The notes under the pieces: generated by a model
Seen by the model: only the letters and a program-made list of their open reading frames with translations
Databases searched by the model: none
What the model was told of the DNA's origin: nothing
Origin: Candidatus Acetothermia bacterium
Lineage (GTDB): Bacteria; Bipolaricaulota; Bipolaricaulia; RBG-16-55-9; JANLFV01
NCBI GenBank assembly: GCA_024653345.1
Contig: JANLFV010000012.1
Coordinates: 1 to 46,992 of the forward strand
DNA length: 46,992 nt
Reading direction: 5' to 3'
Part shown: piece by piece, positions 14,271-32,355 of the stretch
Numbering within the stretch: the stretch's first letter is position 1
How the letters are laid out: every line of letters starts with the position of its first letter
Program-made: the position numbers and the translations under genes

Positions 14271-14299
14271 TTGACGCGCCGGGCTCTTAATGCTATAAT
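14271..14299 (+). promoter_or_regulatory. Sigma70 promoter of arsR and the redox cassette
   Basis: TTGACG (14271-14276) and a perfect TATAAT (14294-14299) are 17 bases apart. It probably drives at least arsR, the permease and the thioredoxin-fold gene. Confidence 0.75.
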
Positions 14300-14313
14300 G
14301 CGCCATGACGCAT
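14298..14313 (+). promoter_or_regulatory. Candidate ArsR operator
   Basis: The inverted repeat ATGCG-6-CGCAT starts inside the -10 box and covers the expected transcription start. Placement is right for autorepression by the ArsR encoded 17 bases downstream. Confidence 0.4.
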
Positions 14314-14330
14314 GATCGCAGGAGGTGGAG

Positions 14331-14654
14331 ATGGACGGGCGCTACGAGCGGGAAGCGGAGTTCTTCATGGCTTTGGGCCATCCGGTCCGCCTGCAGATCC
14401 TGGAATTCCTCGCGAGCGGCTCGCGCTGCGCCTGCGAGCTCGAGCCGGAGCTTCCGTTGGATCAGTCAACGATTTCAAGGCATTTGCTGACCTTGAAGCG
14501 GGCCGGAATACTGGGGGCGACAAAGGACGGGGTCCGAGTGATCTACAAGCTGACGGACCCGCGGATTCTGAAGGTTATTCGGATAGTCTCCGAGTTGATA
14601 ATCGACTCGACGAGGGAGCGACTCGCGGCCTTGGAGGCCGGAAGGAGGTCCTGA
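14331..14654 (+). CDS. arsR: ArsR/SmtB-family metalloid-responsive repressor
   Basis: This 107-residue winged-helix repressor has Cys33 and Cys35 (SRCACELEPELPL) at the start of the recognition-helix region. That is the position of the CVC arsenite/antimonite sensor in classical ArsR. DQSTISRHLLTLKRAGIL is the DNA-contacting helix and FMALGHPVRLQILEFL the typical N-terminal block. The start is ATG 14331, because the AGGAGG ribosome site (14320-14325) overlaps the other in-frame candidate, GTG 14325. The stop is 1 base before the permease start. It probably represses the permease-thioredoxin operon and is released by As(III) or a similar thiophilic metalloid. Confidence 0.9.
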   Translation: MDGRYEREAEFFMALGHPVRLQILEFLASGSRCACELEPELPLDQSTISRHLLTLKRAGILGATKDGVRVIYKLTDPRILKVIRIVSELIIDSTRERLAALEAGRRS

Positions 14655-14655
14655 G

Positions 14656-15717
14656 TTGCACATCTTGCTGGACATCTGGAATTACGGCTGGGGCGCGCTG
14701 GTCGAGTATCTCTCGGCCCATGTCTTGACCTGCCTCGTCCCGGCCTTCTTCATCGCCGGGGCGATCGGGGTCTTCGTCGCCCAGGGGGCGATCCTCCGCT
14801 ATTTCGGCGCCCAGACGAAGAGGTGGCTCTCCTACAGCGTGGCCTCGGTCTCGGGGGCGATCCTCGCCGTCTGCTCCTGCACGATCTTGCCGCTCTTCGC
14901 CGGGATCTACAAGCGGGGCGCGGGGCTCGGCCCGGCGGTCGCCTTCCTCTTCTCCGGCCCGGCGATAAATATCTTGGCGATCGTCTACTCCGCTAGATTG
15001 TTGGGCTACGACATCGGCCTGGCCCGGGCAATCGGCGCGGTGGTCTTCGCCATCGTCATCGGCCTCCTCATGGCCACGCTCTTCCGACGGGAGGACCGGG
15101 CGCGGCAGGCAGATGAGCGGGCCTTCGCCATGGCCGTGGCTAATCCCGCCAACCCCGGCAATCCCAAGGAGAAGAAGGGCTGGCAACTATTGGTCTACTT
15201 CGCCATCCTGGTCGGCATCCTCGTCTGCGGCGCCGGGAAGATGTGGGTCCCCACGGGGATCCTTCTCGCCTTGCTCGGGCTCGTCCTCTACCGCTGGTTT
15301 AGTGTGGCTGAGTTGAAGGAGTGGCTTCTGTCCACCTGGGCGTTCGTCAAGCTGATCACGCCGTGGTTGCTGGGCGGGGTCTTCATCGCCGGGATCATTC
15401 GCGGCTACGTCCCCCAAGGCGTCATCACCGGCGTGGTGGGGAAGAACTCCCTTCTAGCAAACCTCGTCTCCTCGCTCTTCGGGGCCTTCTTCTACTTCGC
15501 CACGCTCACCGAGGTCCCGATCGTCAAATCCTTTATGGAGCTGGGGATGGCTAAGGGCCCAGTCTTGGCCCTGCTCTTGGCCGGACCGGCCCTGAGCCTG
15601 CCGAGCATGCTCGTGATCCGGGGCATCTTGGGAACGAGGAAGACAATCACTTACGTCACACTGGTGGTAATCATGGCCACGCTGGTCGGGCTGCTCTTTG
15701 GCAAATTGGCAAGCTGA
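14656..15717 (+). CDS. Permease of the ArsP/DUF318 family
   Basis: This is a 353-residue polytopic membrane protein. The family signature SGAILAVCSCTILPLFAGIY with paired cysteines (CSC) and FLFSGPAINILAIVYSAR is clear, and the second half repeats it (FFYFATLTEVPIV, LLLAGPALSLPSMLVI). Characterised relatives include ArsP, which exports trivalent organoarsenicals; others are of unknown specificity. The start is TTG 14656, 7 bases after the GGAGGTC ribosome site. The hydrophilic loop near residues 140-175 separates the two halves. It sits between arsR and a CxxC thioredoxin-fold gene, a combination common in bacterial arsenic loci. Confidence 0.85.
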   Translation: MHILLDIWNYGWGALVEYLSAHVLTCLVPAFFIAGAIGVFVAQGAILRYFGAQTKRWLSYSVASVSGAILAVCSCTILPLFAGIYKRGAGLGPAVAFLFSGPAINILAIVYSARLLGYDIGLARAIGAVVFAIVIGLLMATLFRREDRARQADERAFAMAVANPANPGNPKEKKGWQLLVYFAILVGILVCGAGKMWVPTGILLALLGLVLYRWFSVAELKEWLLSTWAFVKLITPWLLGGVFIAGIIRGYVPQGVITGVVGKNSLLANLVSSLFGAFFYFATLTEVPIVKSFMELGMAKGPVLALLLAGPALSLPSMLVIRGILGTRKTITYVTLVVIMATLVGLLFGKLAS

Positions 15718-15736
15718 CTCGAGAGGAGGTTTATCC

Positions 15737-15970
15737 ATGAAGATCGAGGTCTTAGGGACTGGCTGTCCCAAGTGCGAGCGGACTCTTACTAACGCGAAGC
15801 AGGCCGTCGCCGAGCTGGGACTGAACGCCGAGGTAGTCAAAGTCTATGACCTAGGGGAGATCACAGCGCGGGGCGTCTTGCTGACCCCGGCCCTGGCGAT
15901 CGACGGCCAGGTGAAGGTGAGCGGCCACATCCCCTCGGTCGAGGAGATCAAGCGGCTACTGCAGGGGTAG
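15737..15970 (+). CDS. Small thioredoxin-fold protein (redox-active disulfide family)
   Basis: This 77-residue protein has CPKC in the sequence MKIEVLGTGCPKCERTLTNA and a cis-proline in LLTPALAIDG. It is the compact glutaredoxin/thioredoxin-like family (PF13192 type, MTH895/TM0996-like) that regularly accompanies DUF318 permeases. It may pass electrons or carry a thiol-bound metalloid to the permease. I choose ATG 15737 because a GAGAGGAGG ribosome site lies before it; the frame is open to 15698, which would overlap the permease. Confidence 0.9.
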   Translation: MKIEVLGTGCPKCERTLTNAKQAVAELGLNAEVVKVYDLGEITARGVLLTPALAIDGQVKVSGHIPSVEEIKRLLQG

Positions 15971-16043
15971 GGAATAGTGTGGGGCGCTTGACAGGTATCA
16001 TCCATTCTACCCCTGGCCTCCACCCATCTCCCCCCCCTGCCGG

Positions 16044-16083
16044 GGCCTCCCGACGGCTTCGCTCCTGAGGCCGCCGGGAGGCC
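16044..16083 (+). terminator. Large hairpin between the thioredoxin-fold and ferredoxin genes
   Basis: Arms GGCCTCCCGACGGC (16044-16057) and GCCGCCGGGAGGCC (16070-16083) pair over 14 positions with one mismatch, around a 12-base loop. No U-run follows. Instead, the ribosome site of the next gene begins about 8 bases later. It could attenuate or partially terminate, dividing the cassette into two units, or protect the downstream mRNA. Confidence 0.5.
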
Positions 16084-16103
16084 TCGAAAGGAAAGGAGGA
16101 GCG

Positions 16104-16403
16104 ATGCCTTGGCTGATCGGCTATCCTCGAGAGAGGATCGATTGGCACCCGCGGATCAATTATGAGAAGTGCACGGCCTGCGGGGTCTGCCTGAGCTGCG
16201 GGAATAAGGTCTTCCGCTGGAGGGACGGCCGGCCGGAGGTGGCCGAGCCCCTCCGTTGCGTCATCGGCTGCACCACCTGCGCTAACCTCTGCCCGGAGTG
16301 GGCCATCTCCTTCCCCGAGATCGCCGAGGTCCGCCGGATCTACAAGGAGAACGACATCTGGAGTAAGATAAGCCGGGCGATGAGAGAGGAAGGGATGGTT
16401 TAG
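16104..16403 (+). CDS. Di-cluster ferredoxin-like protein
   Basis: This 99-residue protein has eight cysteines in two groups: C23/26/29/32 (CTACGVCLSCG) and C52/56/59/63 (CVIGCTTCANLCP). It is likely to hold two [4Fe-4S] clusters. The order and the blocks IDWHP and GCTTCAN-x-CP-xx-AISFP closely match residues 1-80 of the reductase encoded at 20545, so the two are paralogous. This copy has x2 spacing before the fourth cysteine, the other x3. The protein ends in a charged helix. A strong AAAGGAGGAGCG ribosome site precedes ATG 16104. It is probably an electron carrier for the Fe-S protein encoded next, and the partner is not proven. Confidence 0.85.
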   Translation: MPWLIGYPRERIDWHPRINYEKCTACGVCLSCGNKVFRWRDGRPEVAEPLRCVIGCTTCANLCPEWAISFPEIAEVRRIYKENDIWSKISRAMREEGMV

Positions 16404-16955
16404 ATGCTGCTCCGCGGCTTTCAGAAGATCGAGACCTTCTTCCCCCCATGCCACCCCGGGGAGATCGAGACGGTCACCGCCATGGCTGAGCTTACCGACG
16501 ACATCAGCCCGGCCTTCCCCTACCTCAACGCCGTCCTCAAGGGGACGATCTACGACCAGACCCATCAGACCCTCAACTTCAAGCTCGGCGGCCGGGGGAT
16601 CACCCTCCACCCGCGGAAGATCATCGTCACCCGGCTGGAGAACAAGGAGGAGGCCGAGAAGGTCCTCGAGCGGCTGAAGGACCTGATCAACAGGACCTAC
16701 GAGCGCCGCGACCAGCTCGAGCCGAGCTACAAGAGCCGGGCCAAGCTCACGGTCATCGAGATCTACAAGCTCCTGCCGCGGACCAACTGCAAGGAGTGCG
16801 GCGAGCCGACCTGCATGGCCTTCGCCACCAAGCTGGTCAATGAGCAGGCCACGATCGAGCGGTGTAAGCCGCTCTTCGCCCCGGCGCATCAGGAGATGAA
16901 GGAGCGGCTCCTCGGCCTCCTCGAGGAGGCCGGCTACGCCGTCCCTCAAGGATAA
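16404..16955 (+). CDS. Fe-S protein with an AcsC/RnfB-type four-cysteine domain
   Basis: This is a 183-residue protein. The C-terminal motif C129-x2-C132-x4-C137-x16-C154 (TNCKECGEPTCMAFATK) is the PF04060 [4Fe-4S] domain found in the corrinoid Fe-S protein large subunit (AcsC/CdhE) and in RnfB. The N-terminal 120 residues contain ITLHPRKIIVT and INRTYERRDQLEPSYK and are not part of AcsC, so this is a separate family of unknown role. It starts immediately after the ferredoxin-like gene stop (0-base gap). Tight coupling suggests that the two proteins form an electron-transfer pair. Confidence 0.82.
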   Translation: MLLRGFQKIETFFPPCHPGEIETVTAMAELTDDISPAFPYLNAVLKGTIYDQTHQTLNFKLGGRGITLHPRKIIVTRLENKEEAEKVLERLKDLINRTYERRDQLEPSYKSRAKLTVIEIYKLLPRTNCKECGEPTCMAFATKLVNEQATIERCKPLFAPAHQEMKERLLGLLEEAGYAVPQG

Positions 16956-16972
16956 GGAGGTGTGCGCGCAAG

Positions 16973-17278
16973 ATGGAATCGCTGATCTCTCAGGAGAAGC
17001 CCGAGCTGTGGCGGGCCTATAGCGGGTTTGCGGCGGAGGCCCTCAAGGACGGGGCCCTCCCGGCCAAGTTCAAGGAGCTGGTGGCGATCGCGCTCTCCAT
17101 CGCCGGCCACTGCGAGCCATGCATCCGGGTCCATCTCCGCCGGGCGCTGGAGCTGGGAGCGACGGCAGAGGAGCTCGCCGAGCTCTTGGGCGTGACCGTC
17201 CTCCTCGTCGGCGGGCCGGCGGATGTCTGGACGAGGGAGGCGATCTGGGCAGAGCTGAAGAAGGCTAAGGAGGTCTGA
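16973..17278 (+). CDS. AhpD/carboxymuconolactone decarboxylase-family CxxC protein
   Basis: This 101-residue all-helical protein has the peroxidase-reductase motif CEPCIRVHLRRALELGA near residues 47-63. CxxC followed by a histidine is the AhpD core, in which the cysteines and His relay protons and electrons. LPAKFKELVAIALSIAG and GATAEELAELLGV are family blocks. Members act as alkylhydroperoxidases or disulfide reductases. Here it is embedded among Fe-S and thiol redox genes, so a redox role is more likely than carboxymuconolactone decarboxylation. An AAGGAGGTG ribosome site precedes it. Confidence 0.87.
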   Translation: MESLISQEKPELWRAYSGFAAEALKDGALPAKFKELVAIALSIAGHCEPCIRVHLRRALELGATAEELAELLGVTVLLVGGPADVWTREAIWAELKKAKEV

Positions 17279-17463
17279 TGGCTAAAGAGAGCCCGGGCTG
17301 CTCCTGCGGCGACCCTTGGGGATATCTTCCGCCGGAGTTGCGGCCGAAGCAGAAGAAGGCGAGCTCGCTCCGCGAGGCCAGATGCCCCGGCTGCGGGAAG
17401 CTCTTCTGGACGAACCGGGAGACGGACTACTGCTTCGATTGCGAGAAGCGGCAAGGCGGGTAG
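17278..17463 (+). CDS. Small zinc-ribbon protein
   Basis: This 61-residue protein has CSC near the N terminus (C8, C10) and a four-cysteine knuckle pair, CPGC (C36/C39) and CFDC (C52/C55), which would bind one zinc. Its start codon overlaps the previous stop by one base (TGATG), so translation is coupled to the AhpD-like gene. No family or function is recognised. It might be an adaptor or metal chaperone in the cassette. Confidence 0.75.
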   Translation: MAKESPGCSCGDPWGYLPPELRPKQKKASSLREARCPGCGKLFWTNRETDYCFDCEKRQGG

Positions 17464-17470
17464 CGCGCTG

Positions 17471-18466
17471 ATGCGATCACTCAATGACTTCATCCGGAGG
17501 CACTACTCTTACCTGATCCTCACTACCGTCGGGCTGAGCATCGTGGTCGGCCAGCTCTTCCCCGCCGTGGCCAGGGCCTTTAAGCCCTATATGATCTATC
17601 TCATCGGGCTCATGATCTGGGCGATGAGCGTGACGATCCGGTTCCCCGAATTGCGCTTCGCCTTCAGGAAGGGGAAGCTCATCGGCTGCGGCTTGCTCGC
17701 CAACTTCGTCCTCCTCCCCCTGTTATGCTATCTCTTGGCGATCGCCCTAATGCGCAGCCATCCGCTCTATGCCACGGGGTTCATCCTGATGGGGACCGTC
17801 CCCTGCGCAGGGATGAATGTGGTCTGGACCGGGCTCCTCGGCGGCGATGTGGCCCTGGCTCTCGTCCTCGGGGCCCTGACGATGCTTCTAGGGATCGTCA
17901 CCATCCCCGGCCTGACCTACATTCTCGCCGGAACTTATGTCTCGGTAAATGTGCTCGAGATGCTCTATACCCTGGCCAAGGTCCTGATCATCCCCATCCT
18001 CTTGGGGATCGTCACCCGCTCCCTCTTGGAGAGGAGGGCCAAGCAAGAGACGGCGCTGTTGCCGATCTTCCCGCCGATCGCCGCCATCTCGGCGATGCTC
18101 CTGATGTTCATCATGATCGCCCTCAATATCCGGATGATCCCGGCCGACGGGAGCGTCCTCCTCTCGCTGATCATCCCGCCGCTCTTGCTCTTCCCCATCG
18201 CCTTCGGCGGGGTCTACCTCTGGTGCGATCGGCTCCTCCGCTGCGAGAGGCGGGAGACCGACGCCATCGTCTACTCCTCAGGGATGAAGCACCTCCCCTT
18301 GGCAATGGGGATCGCCTTCGTCTCCTTCGGGCAAGAGGCGGCCCTCCCCATCGCCGTAGCCGCGGTCTTCCAGACCTTCAACGCCAGCCTCTTCTACCGG
18401 CTCTTCCAGCGGCTCGGCCGGCGCGTGGAGGCCGCACAGAAGACGGGTAAGAAGGAGGTAATGTGA
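17471..18466 (+). CDS. BASS-superfamily transporter (bile acid:Na+ symporter/Acr3-related)
   Basis: This is a 331-residue membrane protein with about ten helices. Family blocks include GFILMGTVPCAGMNVVWTGL, LALVLGALTMLLGIVTIPGL, and YSSGMKHLPLAMGIAFVSFG near the C terminus. It belongs to the bile acid:sodium symporter superfamily, to which Acr3 arsenite exporters also belong. It is closer to the generic BASS group than to Acr3, and lacks the Acr3 TRCIAMV-type cysteine helix that is present in the protein encoded at 28237. In this setting it may export an oxyanion or organic anion. The DsbA gene start overlaps its stop (GTGA). Confidence 0.83.
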   Translation: MRSLNDFIRRHYSYLILTTVGLSIVVGQLFPAVARAFKPYMIYLIGLMIWAMSVTIRFPELRFAFRKGKLIGCGLLANFVLLPLLCYLLAIALMRSHPLYATGFILMGTVPCAGMNVVWTGLLGGDVALALVLGALTMLLGIVTIPGLTYILAGTYVSVNVLEMLYTLAKVLIIPILLGIVTRSLLERRAKQETALLPIFPPIAAISAMLLMFIMIALNIRMIPADGSVLLSLIIPPLLLFPIAFGGVYLWCDRLLRCERRETDAIVYSSGMKHLPLAMGIAFVSFGQEAALPIAVAAVFQTFNASLFYRLFQRLGRRVEAAQKTGKKEVM

Positions 18467-19188
18467 GGAAGACCGAAAAGAGGCGGGGAAGGAAGGCCGG
18501 CCTCAGCGCGAGGCTCTTCCGGCTCCGGGCCCCACTGGTGACGGCCCTAGCCCTCGCGGTCGGGGGAGCCCTGATCGGGGTGAGCTACTGGTATTCCAGC
18601 TCCCGGCTCACCTCCGGGAGCCTGCCATGCCCGGAGGATGAACCCTCCGCGGTCACGGAGGCCACGGTGGAGCCGACCAAGGGCTGCCTCGACGCCCCCG
18701 TGACCATCGTGGAGTTCTCCGAGTTCTACTGCCCCTTCTGCGCGAGGTTTGTCTGGGAGACCCTCCCTAAGATCGTGGAGGAGTATGTGAAGAAGGACCT
18801 GGTGAAGCTCGTCTTTCGGAACTTCCCCGTCCACGGCGAGCCGGCGATCCAGGCGGCCTTAGCGGGGGAGTGCGCCCACGAGCAGGGCCGGTTCTGGGAG
18901 TATCACGACCGGCTCTTCACTGCCACCTCCAAGGAGTATAGGCAGCTCGATGCGACGGCGCTCGTGAACTTAGCCGGGGAGTTGGGGCTTGATCGCGCGG
19001 CCTTCCGCGAGTGCCTGAGCTCCGGGCGCTATCGCGCGAACCTCGAGGAGGACATCGCTGAAGGGAAGCGGCTCGGCGTGCGAGGGACCCCGACCTTCTT
19101 CATCAATGGCCAGATGGTGGTCGGGGCCCAGCCGTTCGAGAAGTTCAAGCAGGTCATCGAGGAGGAGCTCAAGAGGAGCGGGAGATGA
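18463..19188 (+). CDS. DsbA-family thiol:disulfide oxidoreductase, membrane anchored
   Basis: This 241-residue protein has an N-terminal basic stretch, then one transmembrane helix (residues 24-45, ALALAVGGALIGVSYWY). The extracytoplasmic thioredoxin fold has the CPFC active site at residues 90-93, the cis-proline loop RGTPTFFINGQ, and LVFRNFPVHGEPAIQAA. It is the DsbA/BdbD type that oxidises exported proteins. GTG 18463 is the start, with AAGGAGGT just upstream, and overlaps the BASS gene stop. The VKOR gene, which would reoxidise it, follows with a 4-base overlap. Confidence 0.92.
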   Translation: MRKTEKRRGRKAGLSARLFRLRAPLVTALALAVGGALIGVSYWYSSSRLTSGSLPCPEDEPSAVTEATVEPTKGCLDAPVTIVEFSEFYCPFCARFVWETLPKIVEEYVKKDLVKLVFRNFPVHGEPAIQAALAGECAHEQGRFWEYHDRLFTATSKEYRQLDATALVNLAGELGLDRAAFRECLSSGRYRANLEEDIAEGKRLGVRGTPTFFINGQMVVGAQPFEKFKQVIEEELKRSGR

Positions 19189-19613
19189 AGAGGACCTCCG
19201 CCATGCAAGTAGCGATCATCGTCCTCGCGATCTTGGGGCTGGCCGACTCGGCTTATCTCTTCTATGAGCACCTCGGCCATGAGATCGTCTGCATCGGGCA
19301 GGGCTGCAGCATCGTCAATGACTCACCCTACGCCGAGCTCTTCGGGGTCCCGATGTCGGTCATGGGCTTGGTGGGCTACGCCTTCATCCTCGGCGCGGCG
19401 GTCGCCGCCCTCCGCTTGAGGGGCCGTGGCCGGGAGTGGGCCAAGGCGGCCGTCTACGGCTTCGCCCTCGTCGGGCTTCTCTATTCGGGCTATCTTACCT
19501 ATCTCGAGCTCTTCATGATCCGGGCCATCTGCACCTGGTGCGTCGTCTCGGCGGCCATCGTCGCGGCGATCTTCGCCCTAGCGGCGGTCGAGCTATGGGG
19601 GAGGGAGAGGTGA
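19185..19613 (+). CDS. VKOR-family membrane disulfide-generating protein
   Basis: This 142-residue bacterial vitamin K epoxide reductase homologue has four hydrophobic helices. The loop cysteines C36 and C41 (CIGQGC) and the membrane active site CTWC (C116-C119) are in the usual order, with the SIVNDSPYAELFGVP block between helices 1 and 2. It transfers electrons from DsbA to quinone and replaces DsbB in many actinobacteria, cyanobacteria and anaerobes. The DsbA-VKOR pair is overlapped, so they are made together. Confidence 0.93.
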   Translation: MKRTSAMQVAIIVLAILGLADSAYLFYEHLGHEIVCIGQGCSIVNDSPYAELFGVPMSVMGLVGYAFILGAAVAALRLRGRGREWAKAAVYGFALVGLLYSGYLTYLELFMIRAICTWCVVSAAIVAAIFALAAVELWGRER

Positions 19614-20617
19614 AAGGGAGAAATGGCAGGTCAAAGGTCGGCCTAGTCCTAAGCGGCGGAGGGGCCCGTGGCTTTGCCCATATCGGTGCGATAAGGGCCC
19701 TACAGAGCCTCGCGATCCCGATCGACCTAGTAGTCGGCACCAGCATGGGGGCAATTATCGGCGGGGCCTTCGCCAGTGGGATCGATCTTGATAAGCTGGA
19801 AAGGATCCTTGCTAACCTGGATCTCTATGACCTGCTGGACCTCCCTCGAAGCTCCTTCCAAGAGCTTGAAACTGTCCTCAGACGGTTCATCGCGGAGCAT
19901 TTCTCTCCAAGGGGAGACTGGCGCTCGCCCAGCTCCCCTTACCATCAACGGGTCCGTAGGCTCTGTGAGTTCTTCAACCTCTTCACCAGGGACAAGACTG
20001 TCGAGGAGCTAGAGATCCCCTTTGCTGCCGTGGCCACTGACATTGATACCGGCGAGCGGGTGGTCCTCCGCCACGGGAGGATCTGCAAGGCGATCACTGT
20101 CTCGGCCATCATTCCGGATGTCTTCTATCCTGTAGAGCACGAGGGCCGCTACCTCGTCGATGGCGGAGTGGTCGACAATCTCCCAATAGATGTAGCGATC
20201 GAGCTCGGTGCGGAGGCAGTAATCGCCATCGATCTCGGCTCGGCCGAGCTCCTTAGGGAGCTCAGGGGGAGCATCGACATCTTCTCCCAATTGGCGCGGA
20301 TTGTGGTCCGCGAGCTGAGCCGGGCCAAACTGGAGCTGGCTCAGGAGCGATTGGGACCAGGCCGTCTCCTCGTCCTTCAGCCACCGCTCGAGGAGATCCG
20401 CTGGCTCGACTTCGCCAAGATCGCCACGATCGCCAGGATCGGAGAGGAGGAGGTCAGGAGACATATCAAGGAGATTAGAGCGCTGGTTGAGGAAGTTGGG
20501 ACGGAGAGCGGCCCCTCTAATCACTTAGAGAGGAGTGGATTATCATGCCCGATCCGAAGCTCGTCAGACCCTGGCACGGCATCCCGCGGGAGCAGATCGT
20601 CTGGCATCCCACCGTAG
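19610..20617 (+). CDS. Patatin-like phospholipase (RssA/NTE type)
   Basis: This is a 335-residue lipid acyl hydrolase. The oxyanion hole is LSGGGARGFAHIGAI, the nucleophile elbow GTSMG, and the catalytic aspartate in VDGGVVDNLPID. GTG 19610 overlaps the VKOR stop (GTGA) and has GGGGAGGGAG upstream; ATG 19595 is also in frame. The last 24 codons overlap the next gene by 73 bases and look like out-of-frame readthrough: after about residue 303 the sequence loses helix-like character. An out-of-frame TAA at 20518-20520 suggests that a small indel has extended the protein. It may act in membrane lipid turnover. Confidence 0.88.
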   Translation: MKGRNGRSKVGLVLSGGGARGFAHIGAIRALQSLAIPIDLVVGTSMGAIIGGAFASGIDLDKLERILANLDLYDLLDLPRSSFQELETVLRRFIAEHFSPRGDWRSPSSPYHQRVRRLCEFFNLFTRDKTVEELEIPFAAVATDIDTGERVVLRHGRICKAITVSAIIPDVFYPVEHEGRYLVDGGVVDNLPIDVAIELGAEAVIAIDLGSAELLRELRGSIDIFSQLARIVVRELSRAKLELAQERLGPGRLLVLQPPLEEIRWLDFAKIATIARIGEEEVRRHIKEIRALVEEVGTESGPSNHLERSGLSCPIRSSSDPGTASRGSRSSGIPP

Positions 20618-21630
20618 ACGATGACGCCTGTATCGGCTGTGGCACCTGCGTCACGGGCTGCGGGCGGCTGGTCTATCGTTTCGACTTTGAGCGCAAGAAG
20701 GCCGTAATTGCTGATCCACTCAATTGCCTGGTCGGCTGCACGACCTGCGCCAACACCTGTCCCACGCACGCCATCAGCTTCCCGCCCCTGGAGACCATCG
20801 CCGAGCTCTTGGAGCGGCCCGAGGTGCACCATGCCGTCGAGGATGAGCTGCTGATGCGGAAAGACCAAGTGGCTTGGCAGGAAGCCCTGCCCCATCCGGA
20901 TCGGCTGGTCCGCTTGGTCGTCACCCGGAAGGAGCCGATCGGCGAAAAGAACCTCCTGGTGACCCTCGAGCCCTACGGTGAGGAAGACTGCATGTGCCAG
21001 TTTATCCCCGGCCAGTATCTGGAGATCTGGGTGCCAGGCACGCCGTGGATGTCGCGGGCCTATTCCATCGGCAGCGCACCGCGCGAAGATGGGCGCATCG
21101 AGCTGCACCTCCGTCGTATCGAAGGGGGGCGGTTCACCACCTGGGCTTTCGCGCAGTTGAAGGTAGGCGATGTGCTGACCGTCCGGGGCCCACTGGGCCA
21201 CTTCGTGGTGCGCTCCTCGCTCGACAAGCCCTTGCTCTTCGTGGCACGGGGCACCGGCTTCGCGCCGATCAAGGCGATGATCGAGCAGCAGCTTGAGCTT
21301 ACGCCCGCCCGGGACCTCTTACTCTTCTGGGGCGTGACCGACACGAGCGACTTCTATGAGCTGGATCTGCTCTCCGGCTGGGCGAAGAGCGATCCAAACT
21401 TTCGTTGTGTGCTGACGGCCCGCACGGTCTCCGCGGGCTTCGTGGTCCCCCAGGGCCTAGAGTTTCGCAAAGGGACTTGTTATGATGCTCTGGAAGCTAG
21501 CCGGTTCGAGATCTCAAAGCGGGATGTCTATGTCGCCGGTCCGCGGAAGACCGTGGAGGCCACCCTCAGGGTCCTTAGAGCCAAGGGAGTGCCTCACGAG
21601 CAGATCCTAATCGACTCATATGGCAATTGA
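20545..21630 (+). CDS. Di-cluster ferredoxin fused to NAD(P)H-flavin reductase
   Basis: This is a 361-residue fusion. Residues 1-80 carry two [4Fe-4S] motifs (C29/32/35/39 and C61/65/68/72, ending CANTCPTHAISFP) and are paralogous to the protein encoded at 16104. Residues 115-361 form a ferredoxin-NADP reductase module. The FAD motif is SRAYSIGSAP and the NAD(P)-binding motif is ARGTGFAPIKAM; a C-terminal VYVAGPRKTVEA follows. It would move electrons between NAD(P)H and the clusters, probably to or from the small ferredoxin or Fe-S protein of the same cassette. ATG 20545 has GAGAGGAG 9 bases upstream, and the gene overlaps the end of the patatin gene. Confidence 0.87.
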   Translation: MPDPKLVRPWHGIPREQIVWHPTVDDDACIGCGTCVTGCGRLVYRFDFERKKAVIADPLNCLVGCTTCANTCPTHAISFPPLETIAELLERPEVHHAVEDELLMRKDQVAWQEALPHPDRLVRLVVTRKEPIGEKNLLVTLEPYGEEDCMCQFIPGQYLEIWVPGTPWMSRAYSIGSAPREDGRIELHLRRIEGGRFTTWAFAQLKVGDVLTVRGPLGHFVVRSSLDKPLLFVARGTGFAPIKAMIEQQLELTPARDLLLFWGVTDTSDFYELDLLSGWAKSDPNFRCVLTARTVSAGFVVPQGLEFRKGTCYDALEASRFEISKRDVYVAGPRKTVEATLRVLRAKGVPHEQILIDSYGN

Positions 21631-21687: not shown

Positions 21688-22431
21688 ATGATGCTCAGGA
21701 TTGAAGGGCTCTTCCTCGAACTGGATGGGAGGCCGATCCTCGGCGGGCTCGACCTGGAGGTCGCCGCGGGCGAGATCCATGCGCTCCTCGGGGCCAACGG
21801 GACCGGGAAGTCGACACTGGCCTACACGGTCATGGGCCTCGCCGGCTACCGCCCCCAGCGCGGCCGGATCTACTTCGCCGGCCAGGATATCACCGATAGA
21901 TCGGTCACCGAGCGGGCCAGGCTCGGCCTCACCCTCGCTTGGCAGCAGCCGGCGAGCTTCGAGGGACTGACGATCAAAGAGTATCTGGAGATTGCCCGGC
22001 AGGGCGAGGGCACGAGCCCTGCGATCGCGGAGTGCCTGGAGCTGGTCGGCCTCCCGCCCGCAAGTTATCTCCACCGCACCTTGAATGAGCACCTCTCCGG
22101 CGGGGAACGCAAGAGGGTCGAGCTGGCCGCCGTCCTGGCGATGGCCCCCAAGCTGGCGATCCTCGATGAACCCGATTCGGGGATCGATGTCCTCTCGCTA
22201 GAGGATATCATGGAGGTGATCCGGCGGATGAACCGCGCCGGGACGACCGTGCTGCTGATCACCCACCGGGAGGAGTTCGCCCGCGCCGCCCATCGGGCCT
22301 CGCACCTCTGCGCTGGGAGGGTCCTGAAGGCCGGCGAGCCGGAGGAGGTCGTCCGGTTCTATAAGGAGAATTGCAAGCGGTGCGACCATGTGAACGAGCC
22401 GGAGCTGGAGCGATTGGAGGAGCAGCGATGA
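21688..22431 (+). CDS. sufC: SufC, Fe-S cluster assembly ATPase
   Basis: This 247-residue ABC ATPase is soluble and not linked to a permease. It has the Walker A motif GANGTGKST, signature LSGGERKRVELA, Walker B LAILDEPDSGID, and the SufC-typical SDxGID-like and HR switch (LLITHREEF). The C-terminal KENCKRCDHVN tail has an extra CxxC. It powers scaffold opening during [4Fe-4S] assembly. The SufB/D partner gene overlaps its stop (ATGA). An AAGGAGGT sequence at about 21659-21666 lies 21 bases before ATG 21688, which is too far to be its ribosome site. Confidence 0.92.
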   Translation: MMLRIEGLFLELDGRPILGGLDLEVAAGEIHALLGANGTGKSTLAYTVMGLAGYRPQRGRIYFAGQDITDRSVTERARLGLTLAWQQPASFEGLTIKEYLEIARQGEGTSPAIAECLELVGLPPASYLHRTLNEHLSGGERKRVELAAVLAMAPKLAILDEPDSGIDVLSLEDIMEVIRRMNRAGTTVLLITHREEFARAAHRASHLCAGRVLKAGEPEEVVRFYKENCKRCDHVNEPELERLEEQR

Positions 22432-23387
22432 GGAAGGCAGTAGAGCTCGGCTATTCCGAGGAGTTCGCGGCCCTCGCCCGGGCCTATGAGCGTTCGGGCG
22501 GCGATCCTTCGGCATTAGCAAACCCTGGGGTTGCCAGCCTGGTGGTGAGCGGCAACCGGGTCCTGGGGCTGAACAGCCTCCCCGGCCTGGATATGAGTGC
22601 TGAAGAGCTGGCCGATGGGATCAAAGCCCACATCGCGGTCGAGCCGGGAGCGATCATCGCGCAGCCGGTCCACTTCTGCTTCGGGCTCTTGCCGGAGGAG
22701 GGGGTCCAGCGGATCATCTCCCATTTCAAGATCGGCCCCGGGGCCAGTGTGAAGTTCCTGGCCCACTGCTCCTTCCCGAATGCGGTCAAAGTCCGGCACA
22801 TCATGGAAGCCGAGGTCGGCAAGGGGGCGGCGATGGAGTATAATGAGGCCCACTTCCACGGCCCCGCGGGCGGAGCGGAGGTCTATCCCCACGCGAGAAT
22901 AGCCATAGCAGAGGGCGGGAGCTACCGCAGCGAGTTCAAGCTGATCCAGGGCGCAGTCGGGCTCCTCGAGATCGAGTATGATGTCCATCTCGAGGCTCGG
23001 GCGGCCGCTGAGCTCGTGACCAAAGTCCATGGCAAGGGGGATGATCGGATTAAGATCAAGGAGTCGCTCTACCTGGAGGGCGCGCAGGCCCGGGGGTTAG
23101 TCAAGAGCCGGATCGTCCTCCAGGAGCGGGCCCAGGCCGAGTTCACCGGCGAGGCCATCGGGGCCGGGCCGTTCTCCTGCGGGCACATCGACTGCACCGA
23201 GATCCTGGGAGGAACCGAGGCTAAGGCGGTCGCCGTCCCCAAGCTGGTCGTGGTGGACGAGCGGGCCAAGCTGACCCACGAGGCGGCGATCGGGAGCATC
23301 GATAAGAAGGAATTAGAGACCCTGATGGCCCGCGGGCTCTCCGAGGAGGAGGCGGTCGAGATCGTCGTCCGCGGGCTCTTGCGCTAG
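22428..23387 (+). CDS. SufB/SufD-like Fe-S scaffold protein
   Basis: This is a 319-residue protein with the right-handed beta-helix core and the C-terminal SufB/D signature HEAAIGSIDKKELETLMARGLSEEEA. ATG 22428 overlaps the sufC stop and has GGAGGAGC upstream. It is shorter than proteobacterial SufB (about 490) and lacks the long N-terminal part. It resembles the single SufB partner found with SufC in archaea and deep-branching anaerobes (the minimal two-gene SUF/SMS type). No sufS, sufU or second sufB/D lies beside it. Cys residues in FSCGHIDCTEILGG (near 255) are candidate cluster or persulfide ligands. It probably supplies clusters to the many Fe-S proteins encoded nearby. Confidence 0.88.
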   Translation: MRKAVELGYSEEFAALARAYERSGGDPSALANPGVASLVVSGNRVLGLNSLPGLDMSAEELADGIKAHIAVEPGAIIAQPVHFCFGLLPEEGVQRIISHFKIGPGASVKFLAHCSFPNAVKVRHIMEAEVGKGAAMEYNEAHFHGPAGGAEVYPHARIAIAEGGSYRSEFKLIQGAVGLLEIEYDVHLEARAAAELVTKVHGKGDDRIKIKESLYLEGAQARGLVKSRIVLQERAQAEFTGEAIGAGPFSCGHIDCTEILGGTEAKAVAVPKLVVVDERAKLTHEAAIGSIDKKELETLMARGLSEEEAVEIVVRGLLR

Positions 23388-23388
23388 A

Positions 23389-24294
23389 ATGAAGAAAATG
23401 ACAATCCAGCTGACCTGGGCCTTCGCGATCTCGGCGACCACCTTCGTTTTGGAGCTCGTCGGGGGCCTCCTCTCCTCGAGCTTGGCCCTCCTCTCCGATG
23501 CCGGGCACGTCTTCGCCGACGCGGTCGCCCTCGGGCTCAGCCTCTTTGCCCTCCGGCTCGCGGCCCGGCCGGCCGATGCCAAGGCCACCTTCGGCTACCA
23601 TCGCGTGGGGATCATGGTCGCGCTCGTCAATGGCACCACGCTCATCGTCATCGCTGCTCTGATCTTCCGCGAGGCCTACCAGCGGTTCTTCGCCCCGCCC
23701 GAGATCAAGACCACGGAGCTGCTGGCGATCGCCGCGGTCGGGCTGGCGGCGAACCTGGCGATGGCCTTGCTCCTCCGCCGCGGGCGGCGGGCGAGCCTGA
23801 ACATCAAGAGCGCCTGGCTCCATGTGCTAGGGGACGGCCTCGGCTCGCTCGGGGTGCTCGCCTCCGGGGTGGTCATCCTCCTCACCGGCTGGAGCTATGT
23901 GGACCCGCTCATCAGCGTCCTGATCGGCGGGCTGATCTTCATCGGCGGGCTGAGGGTGATCCGGGAGGCCGGAGCCGTCCTGCTCGAGCTCCCCCCGCGG
24001 GGGCTCGACCTGGAGGAGGTGGCCCGCGCGATGGAGTCCGTCCCCGGGGTCCTCGATGTCCACGACCTCCATGTCTGGGCGATCACCCCTCAGCTTATTG
24101 CCCTGGCAGCCCATGTCCAGGTCGAGGACCAGCCACTCGCGGCGGCCGTGGAGGTCTGCGCGGCCCTCCGGGAGCGGCTCCGTGGGCTGGGGATCGGCCA
24201 TCTCACCCTCCAACTGGAGTGCCACGGCTGCGCGGAAGGGAAGACCTTCTGCCACCTCCTCGAGCCGCTGGGGGAGAGCGCCGCTGAACCATAA
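23389..24294 (+). CDS. Cation diffusion facilitator (CzcD/ZnT-like) metal exporter
   Basis: This 301-residue protein has six helices and a cytoplasmic ferredoxin-like C-terminal domain. The helix-2 metal site is SDAGHVFADAVAL and the helix-5 site HVLGDGLGSLG (H-x3-D in both), the zinc/cadmium/cobalt-type pattern of the CzcD group. It exports divalent metals in exchange for protons. The C terminus has extra thiols in ECHGCAEGKTFCHLL, which might add metal sensing. It starts 1 base after the SufB/D gene stop, so it is probably in the same transcript. Confidence 0.92.
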   Translation: MKKMTIQLTWAFAISATTFVLELVGGLLSSSLALLSDAGHVFADAVALGLSLFALRLAARPADAKATFGYHRVGIMVALVNGTTLIVIAALIFREAYQRFFAPPEIKTTELLAIAAVGLAANLAMALLLRRGRRASLNIKSAWLHVLGDGLGSLGVLASGVVILLTGWSYVDPLISVLIGGLIFIGGLRVIREAGAVLLELPPRGLDLEEVARAMESVPGVLDVHDLHVWAITPQLIALAAHVQVEDQPLAAAVEVCAALRERLRGLGIGHLTLQLECHGCAEGKTFCHLLEPLGESAAEP

Positions 24295-25629: not shown

Positions 25630-25935
25630 ATGGCGGAGAGAGAGATCGGCTTGAGCGAGATAGCGAAGTATGCTCGGGCGCTTCACTGCCCGACGCGCTG
25701 GCGCATTATAGAATTCCTCGCCCACAGCCCGGCCGCGACGAGCGAGATCGCTTCCCGTCTCAAGCGGAGAGGTCGGGGGATAGGAAGGCCAAACCTCTAT
25801 TACCACCTCTCCGCGCTCCAGGACGCCGGGATCATCGAGGTAGCCGAATATCGCGAGCAGGGCGGGGGCGCGCCGGAGAAGGTCTGGCGGCTAGCCATCG
25901 ATAAGATCACCCTCAAGCTCAGGGAAGGGAGGTGA
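25630..25935 (+). CDS. Winged-helix transcriptional regulator (ArsR-like), probable autorepressor
   Basis: This 101-residue DNA-binding protein has ARALHCPTRWRIIEFLAHSP and the recognition helix GRPNLYYHLSALQDAGIIEV, the ArsR-superfamily winged helix. It has only one cysteine (Cys20) and no CxC sensor, so it differs from the ArsR at 14331. The wing region contains EQGGGAPEKVWRL. It is the first gene of an operon that continues with a Cys/His-rich protein, an ABC exporter, arsC and acr3, and its promoter contains a perfect palindrome. I infer that it represses the operon. How it senses an inducer with one Cys is open; it may use the adjacent Cys/His-rich protein. Confidence 0.85.
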   Translation: MAEREIGLSEIAKYARALHCPTRWRIIEFLAHSPAATSEIASRLKRRGRGIGRPNLYYHLSALQDAGIIEVAEYREQGGGAPEKVWRLAIDKITLKLREGR

Positions 25936-26141: not shown

Positions 26142-27074
26142 ATGGAAGCCATCGCGGTCCAGGGGCTCACCAAGCGCTACGGCGAGGTAGTGGCGGTCGA
26201 CCGGATCAGCTTCTCGGTGGGAGAGGGCGAGCTCTTCGGCTTTTTGGGGCCGAACGGGGCGGGGAAGACGACGACCGTGCGGATCTTGACCGGGATCATC
26301 CGGCCTGACGGCGGGCTCGCCCGGATCAAGGGCTTCCCCGCGGGGAGCCTGAAGGCCAAGCAGCTGGCCGGGGTCGTCCCGGAGATGGCCAACCCCTACA
26401 ACGACCTTTCGGGCTGGGAGAACCTGATGCTCATGGCCTCCCTCTACGGCGTCCCGCGGCGGGCGGCGAGCGCGCGGGGCGAGCGGCTCCTCGGGGATTT
26501 GGGCCTTCTCGAGCGGAAGGCTAGCCCGGTCCGGACCTACTCCAAGGGGATGAAGCAGCGGCTGATCCTGGCGATGGCGCTGGTGAGCGAGCCCGAAGTC
26601 TTGTTTCTCGATGAGCCGACCTCGGGGCTCGATGTCCAGTCGGCAAGGCTGATCCGGGAGCTGCTCCGGGGCCTCAAGGCCCAGGGGAAGACGATCTTCC
26701 TCACCACCCACGACATGGACGAGGCCAATCAGCTCTGCGACCGGGTGGCGATCATCAACAAGGGGAGGCTCGTCGCGATCGATCCGCCCGCGAAGCTGAG
26801 GCTGGCCGCGAGCGGCCTCCAGTCGGTCGAGGTGAGCTTCGCTCAGGCTGACGGCCTGAACCCGGCCGAGCTGGCCCGCCTCCCCGGGGTAAGCGAGGTC
26901 GAGCGGGTCGGCGATAAATGCCGCCTCTACACAGACGACCCGGGGGAACTGGTGGTGGCGCTGGTCAACTACGCTTGCTCCGCCGGGCTGAAGATCGTCT
27001 TGCTCAACACCCTCGCCCCATCGCTCGAGGAGGCCTTCCTGGCCCTGACGGAGAAGGAGGGCTCTGATGGCTGA
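26142..27074 (+). CDS. ABC-2 exporter ATP-binding protein
   Basis: This 310-residue ATPase has Walker A GPNGAGKTT (residues 36-44), signature YSKGMKQRL (about 133-141), Walker B VLFLDEPTSGLD, and the H-switch LTTHDMDEANQLCDR. The remaining C-terminal 90 residues are the small accessory domain common in CcmA/DrrA-type exporters. It energises the permease encoded next, which overlaps it by 8 bases. The substrate is unknown. Placement in an arsenic operon suggests a drug or metalloid-thiol conjugate. Confidence 0.92.
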   Translation: MEAIAVQGLTKRYGEVVAVDRISFSVGEGELFGFLGPNGAGKTTTVRILTGIIRPDGGLARIKGFPAGSLKAKQLAGVVPEMANPYNDLSGWENLMLMASLYGVPRRAASARGERLLGDLGLLERKASPVRTYSKGMKQRLILAMALVSEPEVLFLDEPTSGLDVQSARLIRELLRGLKAQGKTIFLTTHDMDEANQLCDRVAIINKGRLVAIDPPAKLRLAASGLQSVEVSFAQADGLNPAELARLPGVSEVERVGDKCRLYTDDPGELVVALVNYACSAGLKIVLLNTLAPSLEEAFLALTEKEGSDG

Positions 27075-27823
27075 GCCGGCCCTGATCTGGCAGCAATTCC
27101 GCCGGGCCTTGGCGATCGCGAAAAAGGACATCCGGATCTACTACTCCAAGGGGCCGGTGGTGGTCTTCGGGGTCCTCTTCCCAATCTTCCTCTTTCTCGC
27201 CTTCAGCATCGGGCGGCAGATGCCGCTCGACTCCATGATACCCGGCCTTCTGGGAATGATCCTCTTCTTCACCGCCACGGCGGTCTCGCCGATCGTGGTC
27301 CCCTGGGAGACCCAGGCGAGGACGCTCGAGCGGCTGATGGCCTGCCCGGTGAGGCTCGAGGCGATCATCTTCGGGGATGTCTTGGCCTCGTTCGCCTTTG
27401 GGCTGGCCATCTCGGTCGTCCCGATCGCGATCGGCCTGGCCCTAGGGGTTAAGGTATCCTGCGGGGCGGCCTTCGCGTTGGCCGTGGTCCTGGCCGGGCT
27501 CTGTTTCGCCTCCCTAGGCAATGTGTTCTCCATCCCGCCGACCAACCTCCCGGCCACGGTCAATATGATCGCCGCGGCGGTCAGGTTCCCGGTTGGTCTT
27601 CATCAGCGGGGTCTTCATCCCTCTGGATGAGCTCTCGGCCTGGGGGAGGGCGCTCGCCTACATCTCGCCCTTGACCTATTTCACCGACCTCGCCCGGAGG
27701 TCTATTCAGGGCCGGGGCCACCTCCCGCTCGCCGTCGACTTCGCTGCCCTGGTCGGCTTCACCCTCCTATTTCTTCTCGTGGCCACGAGGCTCCATGAGC
27801 GGACGATGCCGAGGAGGATCTGA
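27067..27823 (+). pseudogene. ABC-2 exporter permease, split by a one-base frameshift
   Basis: Residues 1-175 come from the frame starting ATG 27067. The remaining 76 residues come from the +1 frame beginning at 27593 (LVFISGVFIPLDELSAWGRA and ISPLTYFTDLARRSI). Skipping base 27592, an extra G in CCCGGTTGG, gives the continuous family sequence RFPLVFISGVFIPLDEL and a normal 251-residue, six-helix ABC-2 permease. As written, the first frame stops at 27630 after an unrelated tail (GLHQRGLHPSG), and the second has only a TTG start with no ribosome site. It is either a recent inactivating mutation, a sequencing or assembly error, or, less likely, programmed frameshifting. The intact protein would pair with the preceding ATPase. 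Confidence 0.85.
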
Positions 27824-27828
27824 ATCAA

Positions 27829-28236
27829 GTGGCCAAGAGGATCATCTTCGTCTGCATCGAGAACGCCTGCCGGTCGCAGATGGCCGCGGCGTTCGCCCGT
27901 CAGCTTGCCCGCGAGCTGGGCCTGGAACTGGAAGTCGCGAGCGGCGGGACTAAGCCCGTGGAGCGGGTCGATGACCGGGCGATCCAAGTGATGCGGGAGA
28001 AGGGGATCGACATCTCCGGGGAGCGGCCGAGGGCCATCGATCCTCGAGAATTACGGGATTTCGATTACATCATCACCATGGGCTGCGGGGCTGAGGGGGT
28101 CTGCCCCGCCGGATTCACCGGTCGGACGCGGGACTGGGGGATCCCTGATCCCAAGGGGAAGTCGCTCGAGTTCTATCACGCGGTCCGAGATGAGATCGAG
28201 CAGAAGGTGAGAGAACTAATCGAGGAGGTGATCTAA
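27829..28236 (+). CDS. arsC: Arsenate reductase, thioredoxin-coupled type
   Basis: This 135-residue enzyme has the low-molecular-weight phosphatase fold. The P-loop CIENACRSQ carries the nucleophile Cys9 and Arg15. The resolving cysteines are C86 and C92 in MGCGAEGVCP, as in Staphylococcus and Bacillus ArsC, and the acid loop is WGIPDPKG. It reduces arsenate to arsenite using thioredoxin. GTG 27829 starts 6 bases after the permease gene end. Acr3 follows with no gap, so reduction and export are made together. Confidence 0.92.
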   Translation: MAKRIIFVCIENACRSQMAAAFARQLARELGLELEVASGGTKPVERVDDRAIQVMREKGIDISGERPRAIDPRELRDFDYIITMGCGAEGVCPAGFTGRTRDWGIPDPKGKSLEFYHAVRDEIEQKVRELIEEVI

Positions 28237-30843
<2,607 letters not shown>

Positions 30844-32355
30844 GCCACATGCATCGTCTGGGGCGGCTCGCCCTTCCCGCAGTTCGGCAGCCCCCAGATC
30901 CGCCACTCCCGCCGGTCGCAGATCGCGTCGCAGGAGCCCCAGAACTGGGGCGTGATCCCGGTGTAGACCGGATTCTTCAGCGGCCGGACTCGCTTCCCGT
31001 GCTTGATCTCCCAGGCCAGCTCGCAGCCGAACTGGAAGTTCAGCCGGAGATCGTCGATCGACCAGGACTTGTTGGTGCAGACATAGACCCCCTCAGCGGT
31101 GTCGGCGATCAGGTCCTCGAGGGTGAGCTCTTCTTCGCCCGGCTCGAGGTTGATGTTGACCATCCTGATCAGCGGGATATGGTTCCAGCTCTCGGCGCGC
31201 ATCGCCCCGCCGCTCCGCCGGCCGATCAGGGGGGCGGTCTCCCTCGAGGTGAGGTAGCCGACGAACCGGCCCTCCTTGATCAAGGGGTATCGCTGAGCCT
31301 TCACGCCCTCGTCATCGTAGCCGAAAGAGCCGATCGAGCTGGGGATCGTCGCGTCGGCGTAGATGTTCACGATCTTTGAGCCGTAGCGGAACTTCCCCAG
31401 CTTATCCAGGCTGAGGAAGCTCCCGCCAGCGTAGCTGATCTCCGTTCCCAGGGCGCGGTCGAGCTCGGTGGGATGGCCGCAGGACTCGTGGACCTGGAGG
31501 CCCAGCTGCGAGGAGTCGATGATGAGGTCAGTCCTCCTGGCCGGGCAGGGGTCCGCGGCCAGCAAGGCCAGGGCCTCCTCGCGCGTCCGCTCGGCGTTCC
31601 CCACCAGATCAAGCGACGCGACGAACTCGTAGCCCGCGGCGGCGAAGTCCCCCCCGAAGCTGTTGGGATAAGAGCGCCGCTGGACCTCGCCGTCCTGAAC
31701 AGCGGTGGCCGCGATCCCCGCGCCGCTCTCCACGATCTCCTGCTCGATCGCCGCGCCCTCGCTGCTCAGGAAGAGTTTGTTCGTGCGGAAGAACCTCATC
31801 GCACCCTCGGCCATCTGGACCCGCTTGTCCTGCCGGAGCACCTTGACCGCGGCGAAGAGCAACTCCAGCTTCTTGTCCAGCGGGACGGCGAAGGGGTCGC
31901 GCGCGAACGGTGATCGGTAGGAGCCAACCTGCGGCGGGGAGTCGTCGAGCCTCACCGGCTCCCGTTGCGCCAGGTGGCTGGCCTTGGCGATCTCGAGCGC
32001 CCGGTTGGCGATCGCCGCTATCTCGGCCTCATTGGGCTCCGCTGAGGCGGCGAAGCCCCACGAGCCCTTGTATAGGACGCGGATCCCGAAGCCGCGATCC
32101 CTGTTGCGCGCGAGGGCCGCGACCTGCTCGTTCCGGATCGTGATGCTCTCCGTCTCGCGGTCGAGGAATCGCGCGTCGGCGTAGTCGACCCCGGCTCGAC
32201 GGAGCCGGTCCAATGCCGCAATTAGCCACCCCTTTATCTCATCCATGCCCTCTCCTCTCACTGAGGATCGCCGAGACCAAGACTATAGCAAACCCCGCCG
32301 CCGCTGCCAAATGTTCCAAGGGCGTTCCGGCTTGCTCCGAAGCCGCCACTGGGCT

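Follow-up and report, generated by a model that had tools for sequence, protein, structure and literature searches.

A modular ArsR-led gene island in a Bipolaricaulota bacterium, probably serving arsenic resistance, with a ferredoxin block and a two-domain iron-sulfur protein

We analysed a stretch of 46,992 nucleotides from Candidatus Acetothermia bacterium (phylum Bipolaricaulota; contig JANLFV010000012.1 of assembly GCA_024653345.1, hereafter the window), which carries a packed run of genes headed by an ArsR regulator, an ArsP-type permease and a thioredoxin-fold protein. With a probability of about 0.6, we read this cassette as a modular ArsR-controlled arsenic-resistance island with an NAD(P)H-ferredoxin electron line, in an anaerobic bacterium. 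The apparently new elements are the family of a 183-residue iron-sulfur protein, here called FeS183, and its ferredoxin partners; most of the rest fits a modular ars island of known type. The redox conversion and export of a thiophilic element that had been proposed for this region is supported, and the neighbouring genes found across phyla (ACR3, ArsF and ArsG above their model cut-offs, together with ArsC-like genes) have arsenic as their common denominator.

Results

Extent and core genes of the island

All twelve open reading frames (ORFs) named in the first-pass annotation lie from 14325 to 21630 on the + strand, and Pfam and NCBIfam models back nearly every name given. In order, they encode ArsR, ArsP, a thioredoxin (Trx), a ferredoxin (Fd99), FeS183, an AhpD-like protein, a zinc-ribbon protein, a BASS transporter, a DsbA-like protein, a VKOR family protein, a patatin-like phospholipase and FdFNR, in which a ferredoxin domain is fused to an FAD/NAD(P) reductase. 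The tight packing is borne out by junctions of 1, 19, 133, 0, 17, -1, 7, -4, -4, -4 and -73 bp, and the 133-bp gap between the Trx and Fd99 genes is the sole real break among the eleven. The start given to the unit, 14271, is the first base of a near-consensus sigma-70-type promoter (14271..14299, +; TTGACG-17-TATAAT, 11/12 consensus matches) with an extended -10 (TG before the -10). Its -10 region, ATGCTATAATGCGC, is kept in G001, a genome of the same genus and the closest in our comparison set. The end at 21630 was placed too early, because the second contig of this sister genome continues FdFNR-SufC-SufB-CDF, in synteny with the window, so that the unit extends into a SufC-like, a SufB-like and a CDF gene.

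The ArsR/SmtB regulator (14325..14654, +; GTG start) matched PF01022 (2.1e-13) and NF033788 (79 bits, cut-off 55) and carries a CxC thiol motif (RCACELE); a CxC or CVC motif is common to most ArsRs that adjoin genes of the FeS183 family. The permease (14656..15717, +; TTG start) is the only PF03773 gene in its genome (1.6e-80; 270.9 bits against a curated cut-off of 32.3). ArsP cluster 1 was defined by the motifs Hv(L/I)xClvPAfFIAG and LAV-C(S/T)C (PMC4435449), and the permease has both of them, as HVLTCLVPAFFIAG (HVLTCLVPAF at 22) and LAVCSC at 70. We therefore assign it to cluster 1, with export of trivalent organoarsenicals as its predicted function. Two other assignments of the permease were rejected, namely SaoE of the Sec-assisted organometallic (SAO) system (NF040736, 109.4 bits, below 325) and SO_0444-type Cu/Zn efflux (NF033936, 123.6 bits, below 300). 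Trx (15737..15970, +), a 77-residue protein with a CPKC motif, matched Thioredoxin_3 and scored 101.9 bits with TIGR00412 (cut-off 62), and it thus belongs to the ArsE/MTH895 type.

In the 133-bp gap, just 5' of the ribosome site of Fd99, we found a strong, G+C-rich hairpin (16036..16091) with 25-nt arms that are 80% complementary. It is also present in G001 (same place in L057), with sequence changes. As the hairpin lacks a U tract, it could act in processing or in stability, or serve as a leaky stop. An ArsR operator common to both sites was considered and rejected, since no 8-mer of the gap recurs in the ArsR promoter region.

The ferredoxin block and the fold of FeS183

Fd99 (16104..16403, +) is a ferredoxin with two cysteine clusters, recognised by Fer4 models; at 44% identity, it has a paralogue in the N-terminal domain of FdFNR. 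FdFNR (20545..21630, +) matched PF00970, PF00175 and Fer4. FeS183 (16404..16955, +) matched PF04060 (5.5e-16), and its AlphaFold2 model (pLDDT 91.6) is predicted to consist of one TATA-binding protein (TBP) lobe, at approximately residues 4-101, and a [4Fe-4S] domain of the CFeSP/AcsC type at residues 115-176. In the fold comparison, the modelled residues 115-176 matched the N-terminal [4Fe-4S] domain of CFeSP (2ycl) with Z 9.4, a root-mean-square deviation (rmsd) of 1.3 and 48% identity. Similarly, residues 6-98 matched a TBP lobe of M. jannaschii (2z8u_B) with Z 11.5 over 88 residues and an rmsd of 2.4, well above the unrelated rows, which places the predicted model in the TBP-lobe fold superfamily (beta-alpha-beta4-alpha). 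The sequence match to TBP is weak (E 0.009) and insufficient alone; the fold comparison bears the assignment. FeS183 is not a TATA-binding protein: it has one lobe, not two, and none of the 42 members had a TBP family match.

Cysteines C129, C132, C137 and C154 are invariant in the 42 sequences and C16 is nearly so. These four cluster cysteines mark FeS183 as a [4Fe-4S] protein, the cluster itself being predicted. An identity as the AcsC/CFeSP large subunit, or a fragment of it, was rejected. Only residues 114-168 match the AcsC model, at positions 2-56 of 450, the corrinoid-binding part is absent from the 183 residues, and FeS183 has an N-terminal domain of its own and represents a separate, conserved family. 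On the strength of the model, FeS183 looks like a member of an undescribed family that joins one TBP lobe to a CFeSP-type [4Fe-4S] domain.

Gene order in the sister genome and in other Bipolaricaulota

The order ArsR-ArsP-Trx-Fd-FeS-AhpD-ZnR-BASS-DsbA-VKOR-x-FdFNR of the window is kept in G001, and the gene set is thus not a product of chance. Identities between the two genomes are 66% for ArsR, 75% for Trx, 83% for Fd99, 94% for both FeS183 and the AhpD-like protein, 82% for the zinc ribbon, 87% for BASS, 78% for DsbA, 85% for VKOR and 82-90% for FdFNR. The permease in the same slot of G001 is of a different ArsP subtype, with 39% identity to that of the window, and the best match to the window permease in G088, from another family, reached 75% over the aligned stretch and 57% to its 434-residue frame. 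The patatin slot is occupied in G001 by an ORF that reads as OsmC-like. Patatin is absent from the sister, and a functional part for it in the cassette is unsupported.

The ArsE-type thioredoxin was present in 47 of 100 Bipolaricaulota genomes. Among 30 of its loci, taken with about 1.5 kb of flank, the adjoining genes were ArsP (21), ArsG (8), ArsF (7), AhpD (6), ACR3 (6), FeS183 (5) and SufC-SufB (3). ArsP, Trx and SufC-SufB stand in one run in three genomes: G048, with the order ArsR-ArsP-Trx-x-SufC-SufB-x-ACR3-ArsC; G054, where ACR3 follows; and G067, where ArsC follows. In G011 the order is ArsR-ArsP-Trx-ArsF-ArsG-TSUP-VKOR fusion-FeS183-FdFNR-Fd99, with FdFNR directly 3' of FeS183 and both ArsF and ArsG above their curated cut-offs. 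The core of the island is thus ArsR, ArsP and the ArsE-type thioredoxin, and other Bipolaricaulota join this core to AhpD, to ArsF-ArsG, or to SufC-SufB with ACR3 or ArsC.

Two further observations were made at these loci. In L170, L171 and L172 ArsP(-Trx) stands on one side of the SufC-SufB pair and ACR3 or ArsC on the other, so that Fe-S assembly genes occur inside ars runs. Additionally, ars loci of other Bipolaricaulota encode, directly 3' of the thioredoxin, a conserved small protein whose CC motif reads RCCDL...NWIP (L170, 5638-5895; L040, 1991-2239).

FeS183 across bacteria and archaea

We scanned 84,980 species genomes using an FeS183 alignment and obtained 558 relatives; among the best 80, which were kept, about 45 are full-length members of the family, the rest being mainly AcsC-type. 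We compared the neighbours within 6 kb of 46 FeS183 loci with those of 35 AcsC-type control loci. ArsR was found at 17 of the FeS183 loci, Trx at 14, ArsP at 11, ACR3 at nine, DGC and cysteine desulfurase at eight each, CcdA at five, and Fd99-like and AhpD genes at four each; none of these nine was found at any control locus. Enrichment was significant for Trx (Fisher p 1.7e-4) and ArsP (p 1.8e-3) and not significant for AhpD (p 0.13). The ACR3 neighbours exceeded the model cut-off in Chloroflexi, Deltaproteobacteria, Clostridia and Archaeoglobi. In other genomes, archaea included, both FeS183 and AhpD are found together with the permease, the thioredoxin or the reductase, and the co-occurrence test set in the first-pass annotation did not refute its reading.

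The family is wider than arsenic. In a tree made with a quick method the arsenic-linked label changes 10 times, six of these changes being forced by well-supported branches, and the link to arsenic has therefore been gained or lost several times. Some members are fusions, with an N-terminal ArsR-like helix-turn-helix (HTH) in Methanosarcinaceae (a match below cut-off), with a LuxR HTH in Desulfobacteraceae, and with an aminotransferase-V/cysteine desulfurase in two Clostridia. These fusions may be compatible with electron carriage, sensing or sulfur handling.

The desulfurase-FeS183 fusions lie at 686-2431 of L072 and 8771-10519 of L091, and unfused desulfurase neighbours occur in L056, L075, L085 and L087. 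Linked copies of FeS183 are present in two cultivable species, Desulfovirgula thermocuniculi (L077) and Alkalibaculum sporogenes (L075). A Methanosarcinaceae locus (L102, 2734-12151) holds ArsP, thioredoxin, DGC, two AhpD genes, ArsR, the ArsR-HTH-FeS183 fusion, DsrE-like genes and the start of an ACR3-like gene.

Remaining genes of the island

The AhpD-like protein (16973..17278, +) has the full catalytic motif E-x11-CxxC-x3-H and matched CMD PF02627 (6e-21) and TIGR00778 (48.4 bits, cut-off 27.8). It belongs to the AhpD core group and may have peroxidase activity. It is followed by the 61-residue zinc-ribbon protein (17278..17463, +), which had no Pfam or NCBIfam family match. The latter is kept in G001 and G011 with 68-82% identity and lies between ArsR and ACR3 in L069. 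The BASS transporter (17471..18466, +; SBF/BASS PF01758, 1.9e-34) is of an ACR3-like subfamily. It falls below the ACR3 model (TIGR00832, 91.1 bits against 282.8), and the alignment shows that it retains the ACR3 cysteine region but has LPLA in place of FELA. Relatives with 40-41% identity adjoin FeS183 in a deltaproteobacterium that also has a true ACR3 and in a metagenome-assembled Dehalococcoidia genome (L061 and L089).

The DsbA-like thioredoxin (18463..19188, +; PF13462, 3.2e-34; PF01323, 2e-26) appears to be membrane-anchored, judging from its sequence, and is followed by the VKOR family protein (19185..19613, +; PF07884, 3.1e-28). The patatin-like phospholipase (19610..20617, +; PF01734, 3.3e-32) sits in the variable slot and has its stop inside the reductase gene. 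Beyond FdFNR lie the SufC-like ABC ATPase (21688..22431, +; PF00005), the SufB-like scaffold (22428..23387, +, its ATG start assigned by eye; PF01458, 3.4e-19) and the CDF cation-efflux protein (23389..24294, +; PF01545, 1.4e-44). The SufC gene (91% identity) and the CDF gene are found at the same places in G001. SufC also adjoins ArsR-ArsP(-Trx) in G048, G054 and G067 (75-78% identity), and the CDF gene adjoins ArsR-Trx-ArsP in G091. The SufB gene is the genome's only SUFBD gene, and SufC-SufB is the only such system there.

A second ars run downstream

About 6 kb downstream in the window lie an ArsC-like and an ACR3 gene. Their run is preceded by a second ArsR-like HTH protein (25630..25935, +; PF01022 match at 25687-25839, 33.4 bits) and begins with an ABC ATPase and an ABC-2 permease (26142..27823, +); homologues of the permease adjoin FeS183 in L059, L060, L065 and L067. 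The permease (27067-27823) is split into two frames of 187 and 76 residues; the sister copy is intact with 251 residues (L183, 12675-13430), and a frameshift or an assembly error is likely. The ArsC-like arsenate reductase (27829..28236, +) is of the low-molecular-weight phosphatase type (PF01451, 7.4e-32), and its NCBIfam matches are all arsenate reductases, each under its own cut-off. The ACR3 gene (28237..29331, +, end approximate) is a canonical arsenite exporter (TIGR00832, 447 bits, cut-off 282.8). Its frame runs without a stop over 28237-30843 (868 residues), across an antisense gene at 29437-30906 (-), which from the sequence could reflect a lost stop or an assembly error. The ACR3 of the sister is likewise short, with 231 residues.

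In G001 the ABC-ABC-ArsC-ACR3 run is on a separate contig. Both contig ends lie within genes that, in the window, stand on either side of about 1.4 kb, and it is possible that the two runs are arranged in the sister as they are here.

Other observations in the window

An MntP-like manganese efflux gene (PF02659; 13531-14235, -) is divergent from the cassette. An Rfam scan gave no match anywhere in the window, and among 72,556 plasmids no near match was found that would indicate plasmid mobility; one distant FeS183 is on an Acetoanaerobium record that is classed as a plasmid but has the size of a chromosome.

Discussion

A candidate pathway

In the proposed mechanism, thiol-reactive trivalent arsenicals would release ArsR, with its CxC motif, from the promoter at 14271-14299. 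The cluster-1 ArsP permease would export trivalent arsenicals, and the ACR3-like BASS protein would probably do likewise, while the ArsE-type thioredoxin, AhpD and the DsbA-VKOR pair would manage cytoplasmic and extracytoplasmic thiols. An electron line from NAD(P)H through FdFNR and Fd99 to FeS183 would serve a reductive step. In this step a pentavalent or thiol-bound arsenical may be reduced, or arsenic-damaged centres may be repaired jointly with SufC-SufB, the genome's only such system, which would fit the repair of iron-sulfur centres. The substrate, the direction of electron flow and the step served by FeS183 are what we infer here.

Several points weigh against this reading. At approximately 28 of the 46 FeS183 loci, neither an arsenic transporter nor a thioredoxin is encoded within 6 kb, and one large clade of the family, mostly Chloroflexi and Desulfobacteria, is largely unlinked to arsenic genes. 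The control loci were mostly archaeal, so that the neighbour comparison was not matched for lineage, and a full-length FdFNR adjoining FeS183 was seen in Bipolaricaulota only. The 133-bp gap with its hairpin may split the transcript. Furthermore, VKOR and DsbA are oxidising and the CcdA of other loci is usually reducing, which leaves the direction across the membrane unfixed, and permeases of the ArsP superfamily may carry other soft metals.

Alternative explanations

The last point leads to the possibility that the cassette exports or transforms another soft element (antimony, copper or zinc, mercury, selenium or tellurium) and that arsenic genes are merely frequent neighbours. The NCBIfam models that come closest to the permease, although it stays under their cut-offs, are those of SO_0444 Cu/Zn efflux and SaoE; there is an adjacent CDF metal-efflux gene, and the cysteine desulfurase found near some FeS183 members also resembles a model for selenocysteine lyase. 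However, it is ACR3, ArsC-like, ArsF and ArsG genes that recur as neighbours, and the permease has the ArsP cluster-1 motifs; we consider another element rather unlikely. The cassette could also consist of two unrelated abutting units, a small ArsR-ArsP-Trx ars operon and a general operon for thiol redox and Fe-S maintenance running from Fd99 to CDF. The 133-bp gap has a conserved hairpin, and SufB, being single-copy, is likely a housekeeping gene. As ArsR-ArsP-Trx followed by SufC-SufB, by FeS183 or by AhpD-ArsF-ArsG recurs across distant families and phyla, however, we regard such a chance abutment as quite improbable.

A further question is whether FeS183 carries electrons at all, or instead is a regulator whose TBP lobe binds nucleic acid and whose [4Fe-4S] domain, as a sensor of arsenic, sulfide or redox state, adjusts how the island is expressed. 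The modelled single-lobe fold (Z 11.5 over 88 residues) would suit this role, binding of double-stranded nucleic acid has been described for the single TBP lobes known to date from bacteria, those of RNase H3 and RnlA (PMC7221094), and one Methanosarcinaceae member carries an ArsR-like HTH and one Desulfobacteraceae member a LuxR HTH. On the other hand, the HTH matches of the archaeal fusion are under the Pfam cut-offs, other members are fused to, or 3' of, a cysteine desulfurase, and in the window FeS183 adjoins a ferredoxin in the same run as a ferredoxin reductase. A purely regulatory role therefore seems doubtful to us.

Relation to known systems

One of the closest known ars systems, in the part of its description available, is like the island in having ArsR, ArsP or ACR3, an ArsE-type thioredoxin and a membrane thiol redox partner, whereas that part mentions no TBP-lobe Fe-S protein, ferredoxin, ferredoxin reductase, AhpD, zinc ribbon or SufC-SufB. 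The cluster-1 ArsP permeases share both motifs and the ars context; that account leaves the function of both ArsP clusters to future study, and the ArsP that has been characterised is the one from Campylobacter jejuni (PMC4435449). The ArsEFG system for nitroarsenical detoxification also has the ArsE-type thioredoxin, and the G011 cassette has ArsF and ArsG as well. In the window, however, DsbA-VKOR and BASS stand in their place, and ArsF and ArsG are absent among the gene products from Trx to SufC. The SAO system employs a permease of the same superfamily and presumably handles organometals (PMC13188914), but the SaoE model is not reached here and the scanned cassette products matched no Sao selenoprotein model. 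In the anaerobe Fusibacter sp. 3D3 a ferredoxin and a redox-active disulfide gene adjoin arsC, and ferredoxin electrons were hypothesised to reach arsenic; FeS183 and FdFNR are not reported in the available part of that account (PMC9751042). AcsC on the one side and the bacterial TBP-lobe proteins RNase H3 and RnlA on the other each resemble one half of FeS183, and in the libraries and literature searched we found no described protein that pairs a TBP lobe with a CFeSP-type Fe-S domain.

The cassette had been put forward as an undescribed system. This seems to hold for the block of ferredoxin, TBP-lobe Fe-S protein and ferredoxin reductase. Apart from this block we see a modular ars island, and its permease, redox and Suf modules are either known ones or swap from genome to genome. 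A fixed twelve-gene system is not upheld either, since modules are exchanged between genomes: the permease subtype, patatin against the OsmC-like ORF, and DsbA-VKOR against CcdA or ArsF-ArsG. No description of the gene set was found in the literature searched; outside it, an earlier naming of the FeS183 family may exist.

Significance

How strict anaerobes handle arsenic is poorly understood, and the entry of low-potential ferredoxin electrons into it has been hypothesised only. The ferredoxin block provides concrete candidate genes that would link ferredoxin electrons to arsenic handling. More tentatively, FeS183 might found a new class of arsenic-island proteins in bacteria and archaea, in which half a TBP, a lobe of the nucleic-acid-binding type, is joined to a [4Fe-4S] domain of the corrinoid-protein type. 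Such a protein would sense the arsenical, sulfide or redox state, or deliver ferredoxin electrons to arsenic chemistry, within an NAD(P)H-ferredoxin-driven pathway of arsenical reduction and export in strict anaerobes. Found in both bacteria and archaea and repeatedly at arsenic loci, FeS183 could be both a general marker and a component of anaerobic arsenic resistance.

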